Positions 485-5,550 of a DNA stretch of 5,550 bases are shown here, in pieces. Numbering within the stretch: the first letter of the stretch is position 1; every line of letters starts with the position of its first letter. Position numbers and translations under genes: made by a program. Source of the stretch: Kiritimatiellales bacterium (GTDB lineage: Bacteria; Verrucomicrobiota; Kiritimatiellia; Kiritimatiellales; Tichowtungiaceae); the NCBI GenBank assembly GCA_028692515.1, contig JAQUXG010000129.1, forward strand, positions 1 to 5,550, given 5' to 3'. Under the pieces are notes generated by a model. It was not told where the DNA came from. It searched no databases and saw only the letters and a program-made list of their open reading frames with translations.

Positions 485-560
485 GTAGACGAGGCTTCCA
501 GCCTTGTTATCACAAACAACACGTTTCGCATGCGCGAACGAGGCTGGAAGCCTCGTCTAC
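485..560 (+). repeat. REPIN-like REP doublet between priA and the OsmC-family gene
   Basis: Two 24-base arms (485-508 and 537-560) are inverted copies of each other with one mismatch, separated by 28 bases. Each arm starts at its outer end with GTAG, followed by a small hairpin: ACGAGGCT, loop TCC, AGCCTCGT. In the left arm one pair is a G-T wobble (AGCCTTGT). A GTAG tetranucleotide next to an imperfect palindrome, used in inverted pairs, is the hallmark of REP sequences mobilised by REP-associated tyrosine transposases (RAYTs), and such doublets are called REPINs. A second copy lies at 2447-2524. The right arm overlaps the end of priA, and its TAG (557-559 read on the minus strand) is the priA stop codon. 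As RNA the element could fold into one long hairpin after priA. There is no U-tract, so a terminator role is only possible. The RAYT link is inference from the structure. Confidence 0.85.
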
Positions 561-2884
561 AAAAGAGATGTCGCATCCACATCCACAGAAACTTTGACCG
601 TTTTCGGCCACTTCATCGCTTTTGAGGCCGCACGGATTGCATCGTTCATCGATTTTACCCGCACCGACCGCAATAAAATCTGCCAGCGGTATTCCCCTCG
701 CATCCGCGCAATCGGGGCAGGCATCGCCGGTGATACAATGATCCCTTTGGGCAGATCCTTTTCCAAACCTTGGAAACCGGTATCGCCCTCGCGCCGCAAA
801 GCGCTGAAATGCAGCCTGGCTGCTTCCAAGCATTGGAAAAACTTCTCGGCGGCTTTTTCAACCTCTGCATCGTCTTTGCCGCGCAGCGTAATACAGGTCA
901 GATGAGTATACGGCGGATACTCCAGTTCTTTACGAAATGCCATTTCCTGATCACAAAAGCCCTCAAAATCCATCCGCCGCGCAGCCTGTACCGCCGGATG
1001 GTGCGGCGTATAGGTCTGCACAATCACTTCGCCGCTCACCTCGCCGCGCCCTGCGCGACCCGCGACCTGCGTCAACAGCTGGAAAACCCGTTCACCCGCG
1101 CGGAAATCAGCCATATGCAACGCATGGTCGGGATTCACCACGCCAACCAGCGTCACGTTTGGAAAATCGAGCCCTTTAGCGATCATCTGCGTGCCGATCA
1201 AAATATCAATTTTCCCGGTGCGGAATTTTGCCAGCACATCGCGGTGCGCGTTCTTCCGCCGCATCGTGTCGGAATCCATCCGGGCAATCCGTGCTTTTGG
1301 AAATAACTTCAGCATCACTTCTTCAATTTTTTCGGTGCCCGCGCCTGCATAACGGAATTCCGGCGAGTTGCAGGATGGACAACGAAGCGGGGCTGGCTTT
1401 TCTTCGCCGCAAATGTGACAGACCAGCCGCGCACGGGCTTTATGGAACGTCATGCCGACACTGCAATGATCGCACTCGGTCACAAAGCCGCACTCGGGGC
1501 AAAGCAGCGAGGCGGAAAAGCCGCGCCGGTTCAGAAAAATCATCGTCTGCTCGGCACGGTCGAGACGGCAGCGGATCGCTTCGACCAGCTCACGCGAAAA
1601 GAGAACCGGCTTGCCCTCCTGTTGCGCCGCAATGCGCATATCGACAATCCGCATCATCGGCATGCGGCGGTCATCCACCCGGATCGGCAGGTCGGCGTAG
1701 CGATACTTGCCGCCCTTTGCATTGGAATAGGATTCCAGTGCGGGCGTCGCCGAACCGAGCACCACGGTGCATTTTTCGAGCCGCCCGCGCATCACCGCCA
1801 TATCGCGGGCGCTATAGCGCGGAGCTTCGTCCTGTTTGTAGGTCGGCTCGTGTTCCTCGTCTACGACAATCAGGCCGAGGTTGTGAGCCGGCGCGAAAAG
1901 CGCCGAACGTGCGCCGACCACAATCTGCGCTTCGCCGGAACGAATGCGGTGCCATTCATCGTAGCGCTCTCCGTCGGAAAGCGAGCTGTGCAGAACGGCA
2001 ACGCGTTCCGGCTTGTCAGCAAAGCGCGAGCGGAAACGGTCAACGGTCTGCGGAGTCAGCGCGATTTCCGGAACCAGCACAATCGCGCCGCGTCCCTGCT
2101 CGAGCGCATGGGAAATCGCCTGAAGATAAACCTCGGTCTTGCCGGAACCGGTTACGCCGTGAAGCAGCACAACCGGCGGCTCCGGTTCATCCATTGCCGC
2201 AAGTATCTGCTTCAGCGCAACCGTCTGCTGATCCATCAATGGAAGCGGATCGGTCTTCAGCAGTTCAACGCCCTCGTGCGGGTCGCGATAAACCGACTCA
2301 TTGGAAATGGTTACCAGTCCCTTTTTCTCCAGTGTTTTGATGGTTGCCGCAGAAACTTCTGCGGCAGCCGCCAGCTCCGACAGGAGCATCGGACCGTTTT
2401 TTTTCAACCATTGGAAAACCGCCTGCTGTTTGGGAGTCAGTTTGTCGTAGACGAGGCCTCCAGCCTCGTTCGCATCAGCCATGCGTTCCGGTTTGTACAG
2501 AACGAGGCTGGAAGCCTCGTCTACATTTAGCGAAACCATCAACTGCTTCTTTCCGCCGCTTTCCTTGTTGCGGACGACGGCGGGGAGAACCGCGCGAACG
2601 CAGACTTCAAAGGGGGCGAGATAATACGCCGACATCCAGCGCGCCAGCTCCATCACGGTCTCAGTCACCAGTGATTTATCGCCCAGCACTTTGCCAATGG
2701 GCTTAAGGTCGGCAAAAGACGATTTATCCGCGAAACCGACCACAAAGCCGGTTACATTGCGCAAGCGAAACGGCACCTCGACCCGCGAGCCGATTTCGAC
2801 CAGCGGCCGGAGCGGTTCGGGGATTAGATAGTCGAACTCCCGGTTCAACGAGAGGTCAACAGCGACTTTGGCGATGCGGTTCAT
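557..2884 (-). CDS. priA: Primosomal protein N' (PriA), replication-restart 3'-5' DNA helicase
   Basis: PriA recognises stalled or collapsed replication forks and starts reloading of the replicative helicase. The 775 residues show the full family order: N-terminal 3'-end-binding domain (about 1-110), winged helix (about 148-200), superfamily 2 helicase core with Walker A GVTGSGKT (243-250), Walker B DEEH (342-345) and SAT (378-380), eight zinc-binding cysteines (C462, C465, C471, C474, C489, C492, C502, C505), GTQMIAKGLDF (564-574), and motif VI QVAGRAGR (606-613). The C-terminal domain ends in VDVDATSLL. The ATG at 2884 is chosen because MNRIAKVAVDL is the normal PriA beginning. The open frame continues upstream to 3022, but only through a repeat and antisense to yjbQ. 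No Shine-Dalgarno sequence is visible. Two oddities stand out: residues 121-146 are encoded by an in-frame REPIN-like insertion (2447-2524), and the TAG stop lies inside another copy. Without the insert the length would be 749, near the usual 730-750. All catalytic motifs are intact, so the protein is probably functional. Confidence 0.97.
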   Translation of the reverse strand: MNRIAKVAVDLSLNREFDYLIPEPLRPLVEIGSRVEVPFRLRNVTGFVVGFADKSSFADLKPIGKVLGDKSLVTETVMELARWMSAYYLAPFEVCVRAVLPAVVRNKESGGKKQLMVSLNVDEASSLVLYKPERMADANEAGGLVYDKLTPKQQAVFQWLKKNGPMLLSELAAAAEVSAATIKTLEKKGLVTISNESVYRDPHEGVELLKTDPLPLMDQQTVALKQILAAMDEPEPPVVLLHGVTGSGKTEVYLQAISHALEQGRGAIVLVPEIALTPQTVDRFRSRFADKPERVAVLHSSLSDGERYDEWHRIRSGEAQIVVGARSALFAPAHNLGLIVVDEEHEPTYKQDEAPRYSARDMAVMRGRLEKCTVVLGSATPALESYSNAKGGKYRYADLPIRVDDRRMPMMRIVDMRIAAQQEGKPVLFSRELVEAIRCRLDRAEQTMIFLNRRGFSASLLCPECGFVTECDHCSVGMTFHKARARLVCHICGEEKPAPLRCPSCNSPEFRYAGAGTEKIEEVMLKLFPKARIARMDSDTMRRKNAHRDVLAKFRTGKIDILIGTQMIAKGLDFPNVTLVGVVNPDHALHMADFRAGERVFQLLTQVAGRAGRGEVSGEVIVQTYTPHHPAVQAARRMDFEGFCDQEMAFRKELEYPPYTHLTCITLRGKDDAEVEKAAEKFFQCLEAARLHFSALRREGDTGFQGLEKDLPKGIIVSPAMPAPIARMRGEYRWQILLRSVRVKSMNDAIRAASKAMKWPKTVKVSVDVDATSLL
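760..776. repeat. Short palindrome, TTTCCAA-3-TTGGAAA type, inside priA
   Basis: Perfect 7-base inverted arms TTTCCAA and TTGGAAA surround ACC. It lies in coding sequence (protein FQGLEK). It is one of four related palindromes in the window (also 824-838, 2401-2417 and 4184-4200). Confidence 0.6.
824..838. repeat. Short palindrome, TTCCAA-3-TTGGAA type, inside priA
   Basis: Perfect 6-base arms TTCCAA and TTGGAA surround GCA, about 50 bases from the previous copy. On the minus strand it reads as F-Q-C-L-E in PriA. It contains one of the six CATTGGAA octamers (831-838). Confidence 0.6.
2401..2417. repeat. Degenerate copy of the TTCCAA-3-TTGGAA palindrome in priA
   Basis: The left arm TTTTCAA and right arm TTGGAAA surround CCA, with one mismatch in seven pairs. 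It encodes F-Q-W-L-K in the winged-helix region of PriA and contains a CATTGGAA octamer (2409-2416). Confidence 0.45.
2447..2524 (-). repeat. REPIN-like element inserted in frame within priA
   Basis: The element is 78 bases long. The 24-base arms at 2447-2470 and 2501-2524 are inverted copies with one mismatch, and each begins at its outer end with GTAG followed by a hairpin-forming ACGAGGC...GCCTCGT. The 30-base middle, read on the minus strand, resembles the middle of the element at 485-560 read on the plus strand (shared ACAAAC, CGCATG and a final GCG in the same order). The two are therefore full-length relatives in opposite orientation, not just similar ends. The length is exactly 26 codons with no stop in the priA frame, and it encodes residues 121-146 of PriA (VDEASSLV ... 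NEAGGLVY). It sits in the linker between the 3'-end-binding domain and the winged helix, where an insertion should be tolerated. I saw no obvious target-site duplication. Confidence 0.85.
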
Positions 2885-4033: not shown

Positions 4034-4654
4034 TTACGTGTAGAGGTGATGTTCTGCGATATACATTTCCACTTCAGGCGGCACAAGATAGCGGATACTC
4101 AGCCCCTCCGCCAGCCTCATCCGGATCTCGGAGGCCGAAATTTCGATCTCGTGAATCCGGATCAGCCGCTCCAAAAGCTGTTTTTTCCAAACATTGGAAA
4201 GCTGGATCTGCTCCGCGACCCGCGCCGGGTTCTCGCCGCCGCGCGCGAACGGAACAATCGTCCAGTTTTTGAGCAATTCATCGACGTTTCGCCACGAATG
4301 CAGAATGGTGAGCGAATCAAGGCCAACAATAAAAAACATCTCGGCACCGGGATGCTCCGCCTGAATCTGCGTCATGGTGTCGAAGGTGTAGGAAACTCCG
4401 CCACGCTGAAGCTCCATATTGGACACTTCAAAGCTCAGATTACCTTCGGTCGCCAGCTGGAGCATTTCGAAGCGCTGTTGTCCGTCGGCCAGCGTCTTGC
4501 CCTGCTTGTGCGGCGGAATTGCGGCGGGCACAAAGATGAGCCGGTCGAGCTCCAGCTGCTCGACGGCGTCCTGCGCAATCGTCAGGTGCCCCATGTGCAC
4601 CGGATCAAACGACCCGCCGAACACCCCGATTTTTTCTGATCTGTTTTTATCCAT
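4034..4654 (-). CDS. nadD: Nicotinate-nucleotide adenylyltransferase (NadD)
   Basis: NadD joins ATP and nicotinate mononucleotide to give deamido-NAD in the cytoplasm, a step in both de novo and salvage NAD synthesis. The 206 residues match the family length. Seen: the nucleotidyltransferase signature GGSFDPVHMGHL (13-24) with the HxGH motif at 20-23, PPHK (47-50), GLDSL (111-115) followed by HSWRN, the ATP-binding SASEIR motif (173-178, equivalent to the family's ISSTxIR), and YLVPPEVEMYI (189-199). The ATG at 4654 is the only reasonable start, as the signature begins only a few residues later. The upstream bases show no Shine-Dalgarno sequence, so translation may depend on the gene 13 bases upstream. 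Its TAA overlaps an ATG (4034), but I do not take that as the rsfS start. The rsfS neighbour supports the call. Confidence 0.96.
   Translation of the reverse strand: MDKNRSEKIGVFGGSFDPVHMGHLTIAQDAVEQLELDRLIFVPAAIPPHKQGKTLADGQQRFEMLQLATEGNLSFEVSNMELQRGGVSYTFDTMTQIQAEHPGAEMFFIVGLDSLTILHSWRNVDELLKNWTIVPFARGGENPARVAEQIQLSNVWKKQLLERLIRIHEIEISASEIRMRLAEGLSIRYLVPPEVEMYIAEHHLYT
4184..4200. repeat. Short palindrome, TTTCCAA-3-TTGGAAA type, inside nadD
   Basis: Perfect 7-base arms TTTCCAA and TTGGAAA surround ACA. Here it is read in a different frame (S-N-V-W-K in NadD) from the copies in priA, so a shared protein motif does not explain it. It contains a CATTGGAA octamer (4192-4199). Confidence 0.6.
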
Positions 4655-4667
4655 TTTTAAACAGCGG

Positions 4668-5186
4668 TCACTTACCGGCTTTTTTAATTGCCTGGGTTAA
4701 GCAAGAGGCCAAAACCTGAACCGATGGCTCGCGCAGAATATCACGATGTCCGCCGGGAACCAGATAGATGTCCTGATCTTCGGTCAGCGCGCCCCACTCC
4801 ATGGTCATATCGGGGAGGAACCACGATGCCAGATTATCCGAACGGAAAATCGCGACATGACCGGGATAAAAGCGGGGATAATATTTCAGCGCGGCATCGC
4901 GATTACGGCGGTAAACCTCTTCGCGGTTGGCCAGCACCCCCTCATTCATCTGCACGCCATCGAGCATTTTGACGGCATCGGCGGCATCATCATGGAACAG
5001 CCGTTTAAACCGCTCACAAAGAATTTCGATCCACTCCCGGAAACCGATCACGCGCATCAGCTGAATCCGCCGCCAGTAAAAATCTTTTCGCCGTTCGGAG
5101 GGCGGATAGGCCCAGGCATCAATCAGCGCCAGTAATTTCACCTCGCACCCCTGATCCTTCAGCTGGCGCGCCATTTCCATGGCCAC
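4668..5186 (-). CDS. C-terminal part of a thioesterase domain, cut off by an in-frame stop
   Basis: This is the second half of the alpha/beta-hydrolase thioesterase that ends an NRPS- or PKS-type protein, in the same frame as the upstream part (5187-5550). It contains the strand and helix after the nucleophile elbow (VAMEMARQL), the likely catalytic Asp in LLALIDAW (residue 23 of this part), a variable lid region (about 30-100), and the catalytic His in LVPGGHRDIL (residue 147), equivalent to the family's PGxHxxML. It ends in a normal way with TGA at 4668-4670. Counted from the GTG right after the stop it is 172 residues; ATGs also occur at 5180 and 5174, so reinitiation is conceivable. Without the nucleophile this half cannot be an active enzyme alone. 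Thirteen bases separate it from nadD. No further frameshift or stop is seen, so the break is recent, a sequencing error or recoding. Confidence 0.8.
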   Translation of the reverse strand: MAMEMARQLKDQGCEVKLLALIDAWAYPPSERRKDFYWRRIQLMRVIGFREWIEILCERFKRLFHDDAADAVKMLDGVQMNEGVLANREEVYRRNRDAALKYYPRFYPGHVAIFRSDNLASWFLPDMTMEWGALTEDQDIYLVPGGHRDILREPSVQVLASCLTQAIKKAGK

Positions 5187-5189
5187 TTA
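5187..5189 (-). other. In-frame TAA inside the thioesterase active-site region
   Basis: The minus strand reads GGC GGA TAA GTG GCC ATG, i.e. G-G-stop-V-A-M-E-M-A. In relatives this spot holds one ordinary residue (GGxVAxEMA). TTA (Leu) or AAA (Lys) would each differ from TAA by one base. The frame is the same on both sides, so this is a substitution-type break, not an indel. Confidence 0.85.
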
Positions 5190-5550
5190 TCCGCCGTAAC
5201 ACCAGCCGCCCAGCAGATAAGGCCCGTCCGGCAGAAATTCGCGCAATACTGACACATAGTGAGTGGCCATTTCCGGAATGGTGGAGTGTACCTTGTCCGG
5301 ATCAACCAGTCCGAGCGACTGAAAACCGTAAACCGGCTGATCCGTCGGCAGATTATGAACCAAATTGGAATAGCCCAGCAGGTCGCCGGGTGCGCTGTGC
5401 AACAGGAAGAACGGAGTATGGTTCGCCGCGCCGTCTTTGAGGCAGACCAGCGATTTATATTCCGTGCCTCCGCCGCGCAGACCGACCACTTCCGCCATCT
5501 GTTCGACAGTCGGATACTGAAACAGCTGTGCAACGGTCAGCGACAGACCG
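5187..5550 (-). CDS. Carrier-protein end plus N-terminal half of a thioesterase (partial; NRPS/PKS type), ending at an in-frame TAA
   Basis: The reading frame enters from the right edge, so the true start is outside the window; the ATG at 5498 is internal. The first visible residues (LSLTVAQLFQYPTVEQMAEVV) look like the last helix of an acyl/peptidyl carrier protein. After a short linker the thioesterase begins: PFFLLHSAPGDLLGYSNLV with the oxyanion-type segment, VYGFQSLGL, then the nucleophile elbow GGWCYGG, with TGT (5199-5201) giving Cys where Ser is usual. Thioesterase domains release the finished product from the assembly line by hydrolysis or cyclisation. Two codons after the active-site YG comes TAA (5187-5189), and homology continues in the same frame. 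The parent protein could be a multimodular NRPS, a PKS or a hybrid; the window does not show which. The gene is interrupted as written. Confidence 0.82.
   Translation of the reverse strand, partial: GLSLTVAQLFQYPTVEQMAEVVGLRGGGTEYKSLVCLKDGAANHTPFFLLHSAPGDLLGYSNLVHNLPTDQPVYGFQSLGLVDPDKVHSTIPEMATHYVSVLREFLPDGPYLLGGWCYGG

Follow-up and report, generated by a model that had tools for sequence, protein, structure and literature searches.

The question raised by this locus is how a palindromic DNA repeat came to be translated as part of PriA, a housekeeping protein. The locus lies in a stretch of 5,550 bases from a Kiritimatiellales bacterium (the window), which is one whole contig (G000:C226) of the draft genome G000 (1.81 Mb, 288 contigs, 86%-complete). 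In the linker of PriA that joins the 3'-DNA-binding domain to the winged helix, 26 residues are encoded by a REPIN, that is, a pair of inverted repetitive extragenic palindromes (REPs) of the GTAG type. These residues are probably what was left when a REP-associated tyrosine transposase (RAYT) embedded in PriA was lost by recombination between the REPINs that flanked it.

Residues 121-146 of PriA (VDEASSLVLYKPERMADANEAGGLVY) are a stop-free minus-strand reading of the repeat. An earlier note on this DNA had described a 78-base REP-type repeat (2447-2524) translated in the priA frame and placed in the inter-domain linker, and both points hold: the flanking domains are intact, and PriA_3primeBD, DEAD, Helicase_C, Zn_ribbon_PriA and PriA_C all exceed the Pfam cut-off. 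The two arms (2447-2471 and 2500-2524) have 25 nt each, are 96% complementary and lie 28 nt apart. The 24-nt REP arm GTAGACGAGGCTTCCAGCCTCGTT finds 17 matches in G000 with up to three mismatches and its reversed control none, a repetition far above chance. These matches correspond to eight dimers and one degenerate copy, and the window element is thus two inverted REPs that occur as a unit and are repeated in the genome, as expected of a REPIN. The priA-linker dimer is the single one of the eight that has at least 100 amino acids (aa) of open frame to its left and to its right (180 and 629). Two further dimers lie in unevenly divided frames (10 and 297; 57 and 127), and no frame above 80 aa in all runs through the remaining ones. 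The priA REPIN has 78 bases, whereas the other seven have 76, which is not a multiple of three. In the linker modelling proposed in the earlier note, residues 123-144 are predicted to be disordered (predicted local distance difference test score, pLDDT, below 50). Three dispersed REPINs of G000 (C251:161-236, C272:4208-4283 and C282:2020-2095) have identical 28-nt spacers, which implies that they were copied or duplicated recently; they may be recent copies or duplicated contig ends.

A first survey covered 58 genomes, the own one and relatives, searched with the PriA of the window. Several relatives match it as two blocks with about 200 residues of open frame between them, at the linker. This insert is a RAYT (HWRQDGTTYFVTFRLADSLP, followed by MPNHVHVLV, WQKESFDHIVR and YIxxNP). 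It has no stop of its own and its frame continues into PriA. In P0001 and P0089, which have the full set of PriA domains, Y1_Tnp exceeds the Pfam cut-off and lies after PriA_3primeBD and before the helicase, and the PriA identity of P0089 is clear from TIGR00595 (659 bits, cut-off 230). The HxH element of the HUH motif is present in all 39 PriA-embedded RAYTs, and the catalytic tyrosine is found by pattern in 37 of them and, by eye, within a variant motif in P0002. The best PDB profile match of the RAYT is TnpArep 4er8 (E 7e-4); the 50 PDB matches listed by Foldseek are PriA and other helicase-type proteins, so that the assignment of the RAYT fold rests on sequence profiles. The same site of PriA carries a RAYT in frame in seven genomes of the same genus (G003, G005, G006, G007, G010, G011 and G013) and also in genomes of the same order. 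Where the junctions were read as DNA, which covers part of the loci, GTAGAC and/or GTCTAC REP arms stand in frame beside the RAYT (L012, L016, L030, L031, L034, L035 and L036), and L013-L015 have a GTGGCAG variant of the REP. In G019, G031, G033 and G024 the RAYT stands between two complete REPINs that share one reading frame.

So that rows were not selected for RAYT, 5.8 billion proteins were searched with the same PriA, and the best 120 of 7,977 hits (7,999 scored candidates) were taken; 111 PriA rows could be cut automatically and nine were skipped. The linker holds a RAYT in 38 of these proteins, a REPIN only in 13 (the window is one of them), another short sequence in 30, and it is empty in 30. 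The last two classes were separated by length (37 aa or less being empty) and by motif; in some short linkers the likeness to REPs was judged by eye alone, and a few of those scored as empty are possibly worn remnants. The priA linker is therefore a shared in-frame site that holds nothing, REP remnants, a REPIN, or a RAYT between REPs or REPINs. The idea of a one-off capture of an interspersed repeat, put forward in the earlier note, does not survive this result, given that the same codon position is a hotspot in two families. Cultured species show the main states: Pontiella sulfatireligans (P0093) has the RAYT, P. desulfatans (P0310) the REPIN only and P. agarivorans (P0332) an empty linker, while Tichowtungia aerotolerans (P0281) has, by eye, part of a REP. 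Two genomes were left out, namely the close relative G002, whose linker reads N, and G004, whose contig ends at the linker. A typical empty linker reads SLTGxxPxKxLTxxQQ or SLTGxxPEKITxxQ, and a REPIN linker SLN[REPIN]DKLTPKQQ, about five native residues having been lost where the REPIN entered. The clean gap of 26 residues that had been predicted for relatives is nearly right: linkers without the insert do exist (e.g. P0245, P0246 and P0248-P0253), and they have 36 aa where the window PriA has 57, as the REPIN allele has also lost about five native residues (TGxxx).

The proteins that rank highest after the window's own are P0242 and P0089, and their REPINs are of the window type. P0089, which is 88% identical to the window PriA over the C-terminal part, shows the order REPIN (NVDEASRLV..NEAGSLVYD), RAYT, REPIN (NVDEASSLVLQK..NESGSLVY) and native KLTLKQQ; P0242 has the same layout. 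Recombination between two such REPINs, being direct repeats, would be the simplest route to the window allele, and since they stand in the same reading frame the loss would itself be in frame. In the P0089 model the REPIN segments (122-149 and 341-369) have pLDDT values below 50, and the block means of the RAYT (171-340) are 60-84; the REPINs are thus modelled as disordered tethers and the RAYT as folded at moderate confidence. The predicted template modelling scores (0.45 for P0089 and 0.63 for the window PriA) make the placement of domains unreliable.

The spacer between the REP arms bears on the origin of the window REPIN. It has 30 nt, read as the ten residues LYKPERMADA, vs 28 nt in the seven dispersed REPINs of G000. 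Ten-residue spacers occur in seven REPIN-only alleles of family f1, including the window, and in both REPINs of P0242, P0261 and P0089. As a peptide, the window spacer scores 17-34 against ten of the 12 other priA spacers, with at most two of 2000 shuffles as high; its best matches are the upstream REPIN of the RAYT allele P0261 (34) and the REPIN-only alleles P0268 (33) and P0247 (32). On the other hand, the seven dispersed spacers, translated in the REP frame on both strands, give -10 to -15. Compared as DNA, the dispersed spacers score 12.5-14 against the window, all above the shuffled mean (10.6-11.0); two of them (485-560 and C211) exceed the 95% point and five lie below it. The proposal that the window REPIN is a copy of a dispersed one, also made in the earlier note, was rejected after these comparisons. 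Spacer length and likeness to the priA REPINs of other species place the window REPIN in a lineage resident in priA, of which it is an allele.

Related to the maintenance of the insert, the ratio of non-synonymous to synonymous divergence (dN/dS) of the RAYT is 0.045-0.16 in 13 of 15 pairs (two being saturated), and that of the PriA core 0.065-0.146 in 11 pairs. Removal of the insert as an intron or intein was considered and discarded: no self-splicing intron reached the Rfam gathering score in six sources (the window, L012, L036, L121, L142 and L143), and the families listed for P0001 and P0089 (Pfam, and the best 25 of 31 in NCBIfam) include no intein or Hint family at E 1e-5.

The same class of RAYT occurs in frame in many other proteins: XseA, RarA, ClpB, CarB, leucyl-tRNA synthetase (LeuRS), a CCA-type transferase, mevalonate decarboxylase and restriction enzymes. 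A protein search with the RAYT region, limited to about 530-1690 aa, gave 985 hits at E <=1e-4 among 1,669 candidates, and the hosts of the best 120, assigned by motif, are PriA (31), RarA (23), ClpB (13), mevalonate decarboxylase (12) and others (41). In the 58 genomes, 45 of 50 RAYT matches of at least 160 bits lie within frames of at least 440 aa, as counted from the listing. Thirty loci, one per genome, with hosts named by eye and with Pfam for ten, comprise PriA (13), XseA (7), radical-SAM/B12 proteins, DNA methylases and CCA-type transferases (two each), mevalonate decarboxylase (1), HypF with one stop (1) and stand-alone RAYTs (2); stand-alone members of the class also exist. Among the best 80 of 556 RAYT loci in named genomes, 43 have an open frame of at least 100 aa on both sides, 15 on one side and 22 on neither. 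Pfam searches on those 43 loci (best 25 of 54 families) gave Y1_Tnp in 33, carbamoyl-phosphate synthase in 8, Eco57I in 6, the HsdR N-terminus in 4, adenosine deaminase and poly(A)/CCA polymerase in 3 each, and exonuclease VII and LeuRS in 2 each. The CarB domain gives one match over the cut-off in each of nine genomes, and a RAYT lies within CarB in seven of them; the CarB frames of the genomes G058 and G059 have 1,356 aa (content unread) and 1,109 aa, respectively. In both of these the RAYT-bearing LeuRS is the only strong LeuRS match, the weaker ones (E 6e-8 to 3e-5) being taken to be other synthetases. Single-copy hosts of this kind must work, and this speaks for functional fusion proteins. 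As a separate observation, L120, from a Spartobacteria draft genome, has an open frame whose N-terminal end is a RAYT and which continues as a RecF-like protein (host by eye).

The phylogeny of the RAYTs bears on whether they are exchanged. The trees were built by extraction with hidden Markov models (184 rows), and a careful tree was made on 86 of these, with a bootstrap not fully settled and no mixture model. A single clade of PriA RAYTs is rejected on the 86-row tree (approximately unbiased test, p-AU 0.0065, for a group defined by host gene and in a test chosen after the first tree). These RAYTs form three clades in the 184-row tree and require four changes in the 86-row tree, and since the picture of clades shifted, the claim is limited to the rejection of one clade. 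In the 86-row tree there is a separate clade for the RAYTs of RarA, for those of XseA and for those of mevalonate decarboxylase, and none for those of ClpB; the XseA RAYTs are split in the 184-row tree. The RAYT of P0089 groups with seven RAYTs of family f2 (support 100/99.9) while its PriA lies in f1, and thus looks laterally acquired. The synonymous divergence (dS) of the RAYT is higher than that of the PriA core in each of the 11 pairs for which both could be obtained, which an exchange of RAYTs would predict. An embedded RAYT and a REP population occur together: in 12 genomes picked by priA state, with copies inside priA included, the flanking REP GTAGACGGAGCTTCCAGCTCCGTT has 23 matches in G024, 20 in G019, 19 in G033, 16 in G031 and 26 in G038, all with a RAYT in PriA and that REP, 10 in G025 (REPIN only), one each in G018 and G014, and none in G007, G020, G023 and G034.

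The origin proposed for the window allele has to be weighed against other explanations. A fresh capture, in which a REPIN of the dispersed family jumped into an empty linker and fell in frame by chance, is very unlikely. Empty linkers are common (30 of 111, by length), the rows nearest to the window by path are empty, the same REP arm forms eight dimers across G000, the three identical spacers speak of copying, and the DNA scores (seven of seven above the shuffled mean, two above the 95% point) fit this explanation; it leaves aside, however, that the priA REPIN has two bases more than the dispersed ones, that its spacer peptide resembles ten of 12 priA spacers of other species and no dispersed one, and that 13 of 111 rows carry a single REPIN in frame. 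An assembly or binning artefact might be suspected, the window being one entire 5.5-kb contig among the 288 of a draft genome, but it is extremely improbable, as the same architectures come from several independent sources and from named species (P0093 and P0310; L121 is P. sulfatireligans F21(T)). Retention of the RAYT-PriA fusion for a benefit to the host, such as the cleavage of REPs at stalled forks, is compatible with the other explanations and, on balance, unlikely. PriA binds replication forks. The dN/dS of the RAYT is of the same order as that of the PriA core, HxH is conserved in 39 of 39, and relatives of IS200/IS605 act on the lagging-strand template (PMC6006769). Nevertheless, the distribution is very patchy with frequent changes of state, and CarB, LeuRS and mevalonate decarboxylase, which carry the same RAYT class, are unconnected to forks.

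More serious, though still rather unlikely, is the possibility that the REPIN-only allele is ancestral and served as a landing pad, into which RAYTs came later by recombination, so that the window allele never held one. REPIN-only alleles are found in both families, the RAYTs of PriA have at least two origins, the two REPINs flanking a single RAYT differ from each other (P0089 and P0242), and the REPIN-only P0268 and P0247 stand beside the RAYT allele P0261 among the best spacer matches. This possibility leaves the source of the first REPIN unexplained, and a tree of 60 rows pairs G000 with the RAYT allele P0089 as its sister (98 in the Shimodaira-Hasegawa-like approximate likelihood ratio test, SH-aLRT), with the reservation that the rows of that tree taken from the protein search with the RAYT region had been picked for RAYT. 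In the PriA tree of 111 rows, the empty P0245 and P0246 have the shortest paths to the window, RAYT alleles come next, and the forks near the window are weak (80-92%). The trees thus do not settle the direction of change, and the REPIN-only allele could also be an ancestor that later received a RAYT.

The 111-row tree weighs against loss of the RAYT as the source of the window allele, and other observations do so too. The loci of P0089 and P0242 are known as protein and not as DNA, and the two P0089 spacers score only -8 and 8 against the window (1217 and 29 of 2000 shuffles as high). No RAYT of the embedded class was found in G000 as an 86%-complete draft; a cognate RAYT was sought there, and the only two Y1_Tnp genes that turned up stand alone and belong to other classes. 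The RAYT state changes at least 30 times on the 111 rows, and shuffled labels give a mean of 31.8 (125 of 500 as low), so that this state has little phylogenetic signal; recombination of PriA itself could add to the changes. Related to the RAYT, G003 has histidine in place of the catalytic tyrosine (the sole exception), and dS is above 1.5, near saturation, in 14 of 15 pairs. The scores on NF047646, the NCBIfam RAYT model, are below the cut-off of 80 (P0089 55.6 bits, P0001 60.6 bits); the stand-alone class member P0146 is equally low (55.5 bits), which suggests a class divergent from that model. Finally, it is not claimed that the RAYT lacks any possible start of its own: 22 of 39 linkers have no methionine between their start and the RAYT core and 17 have one, while an ATG, GTG or TTG codon precedes the core in all 15 loci read as DNA. 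With such codons ahead of it, the RAYT may be expressed separately by internal initiation.

If the 26 residues are indeed the trace of a lost RAYT, the element would be a REPtron that resides, unspliced, as one domain of a housekeeping protein. The REPs would then have two roles: as single-stranded DNA they would be the substrate of the RAYT, and in the protein they would form a flexible linker at either junction. The spread of the element would resemble homing, with other lineages receiving it at this same site. Loss out of frame would break the host gene, which would explain why the element stays in frame and why its scars are multiples of three. The arguments appear evenly balanced for the wider proposal that RAYTs of this class represent a new resident mobile element, kept as an unspliced in-frame domain of single-copy housekeeping proteins, with REPs as linkers and intein-like homing to one codon position in different species, and protected since only in-frame loss is survivable.

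The features of the window are collected in Table 1. The name winged helix is presumed from general knowledge of PriA.

Table 1. Features of priA and its REPINs in the window (positions from the first base; strand in the third column).
Feature	Position	Strand	Basis or remark
priA coding sequence	560..2884	-	775 aa; TAG stop codon 557-559
3'-DNA-binding domain of PriA, residues 6-101	2582..2869	-	PF17764
REPIN (two inverted GTAG-type REPs), PriA residues 121-146	2447..2524	-	inverted repeats and in-frame translation
N-terminal-side REP arm of the priA REPIN, about residues 121-129	2500..2524	-	inverted pair
C-terminal-side REP arm, about residues 138-146	2447..2471	-	inverted pair; one mismatch to the common REP
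Winged-helix region of PriA (presumed), about residues 149-197	2294..2440	-	modelled helices and strand; boundaries approximate
Second REPIN, 76 bases, untranslated	485..560	.	adjoins the end of priA; its GTAG contains the priA stop

The TAG stop of priA (557-559) is supplied by the GTAG of the REPIN at 485-560, yet G013 and G003 have the identical last codon and stop (TTG TAG) without that REPIN. REP arms likewise adjoin the 3' end of priA in G033 (C120:5150-5266, L031 region), which belongs to another family, and with both cases in view REPINs may recur at the priA stop as a second site. PriA has another, shorter extra stretch (about 757-839, residues about 683-710), which corresponds to a 21-residue gap in P0089 and overlaps or adjoins two TTCCAA..TTGGAA palindromes; residues 699-712 are modelled as disordered. 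The palindrome TTCCAANNNTTGGAA, presumably a highly iterated palindrome of the HIP1 kind, has 609 copies in the 1.81 Mb of G000 (reversed control 0); across 40 genomes searched it reaches 1,177 copies (G018), and only 0-6 occur in G015, G016, G021, G026, G029, G030 and G039. In the window it is found at 757-776, 820-839, 2398-2417 and 4181-4200, all within coding sequence, three sites being exact and 2398-2417 having one mismatch. Elsewhere in the window, a minus-strand frame (4668-5549), which we take to be a thioesterase-like member of the alpha/beta-hydrolase family, is interrupted by an in-frame TAA (5187-5189) directly after GGWCYGG; this may be a nonsense mutation, a pseudogene or a sequence error.

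The components of this system are well known. GTAG REPs, RAYTs and REPtrons, i.e. transposase genes flanked by REPs, have been described, as well as REPs inside genes, often those of replication or repair (PMC3733652); REPs within genes had thus already been reported, a point that the earlier note misses. TnpAREP cleaves single-stranded REPs, a reaction in which GTAG matters (PMC8266576). The element described here shares with REPtrons an HUH Y1 transposase between GTAG-tagged palindromes, but the REPtron is described, in the parts of the source considered, as a gene flanked by REPs, whereas this RAYT lacks its own stop and forms one of the domains of PriA. REPs in coding sequences (GTAG and CGTC REPs, Rickettsia RPE) are also translated in frame, often in replication or repair genes; those parts of PMC3733652 deal with palindromes alone, whereas here they are alleles of a transposase-bearing element at a shared site. 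Inteins likewise lie in frame in conserved hosts, with host-specific lineages, a patchy distribution and signs of lateral spread to the same site; in contrast, no intein family is listed for P0001 and P0089, the scars stay as linker residues and the enzyme is a REP transposase. The ShiLan domain of a phage methylase is a non-intein in-frame insertion with homing-like evolution, although its endonuclease is described as read in another frame (PMC11855218), whereas here the transposase is in the host frame. A survey of 2018 discarded a few unexpectedly long TnpAY1 proteins as gene fusions or annotation errors (PMC6006769, as far as the part consulted goes); such long proteins are common here. 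Searches of the open-licence literature, outside which most subscription papers and all bioRxiv preprints lie, returned no paper that pairs a RAYT or Y1_Tnp with PriA; the open-licence titles and openings of abstracts listed give no account of RAYTs embedded in host proteins, and PMC2817692 contains none of six fusion-related terms. The embedded RAYT is called here a new variant of REPtron, and evidence of both homing and unspliced retention would make it a separate category.

To our knowledge, RAYTs and REPs have long been a puzzle, being transposases without clear benefit to the host. Carriage within an essential-type protein would give a RAYT a direct means of persistence, under which it need not earn its keep as a gene on its own. 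It is also suggested that a palindrome which is a DNA target may at the same time be under selection as a protein linker. The cultured Pontiella species with empty, REPIN-only and RAYT alleles make these predictions testable. From the point of view of annotation, hundreds of long RAYT-bearing proteins may be real fusions and not errors.

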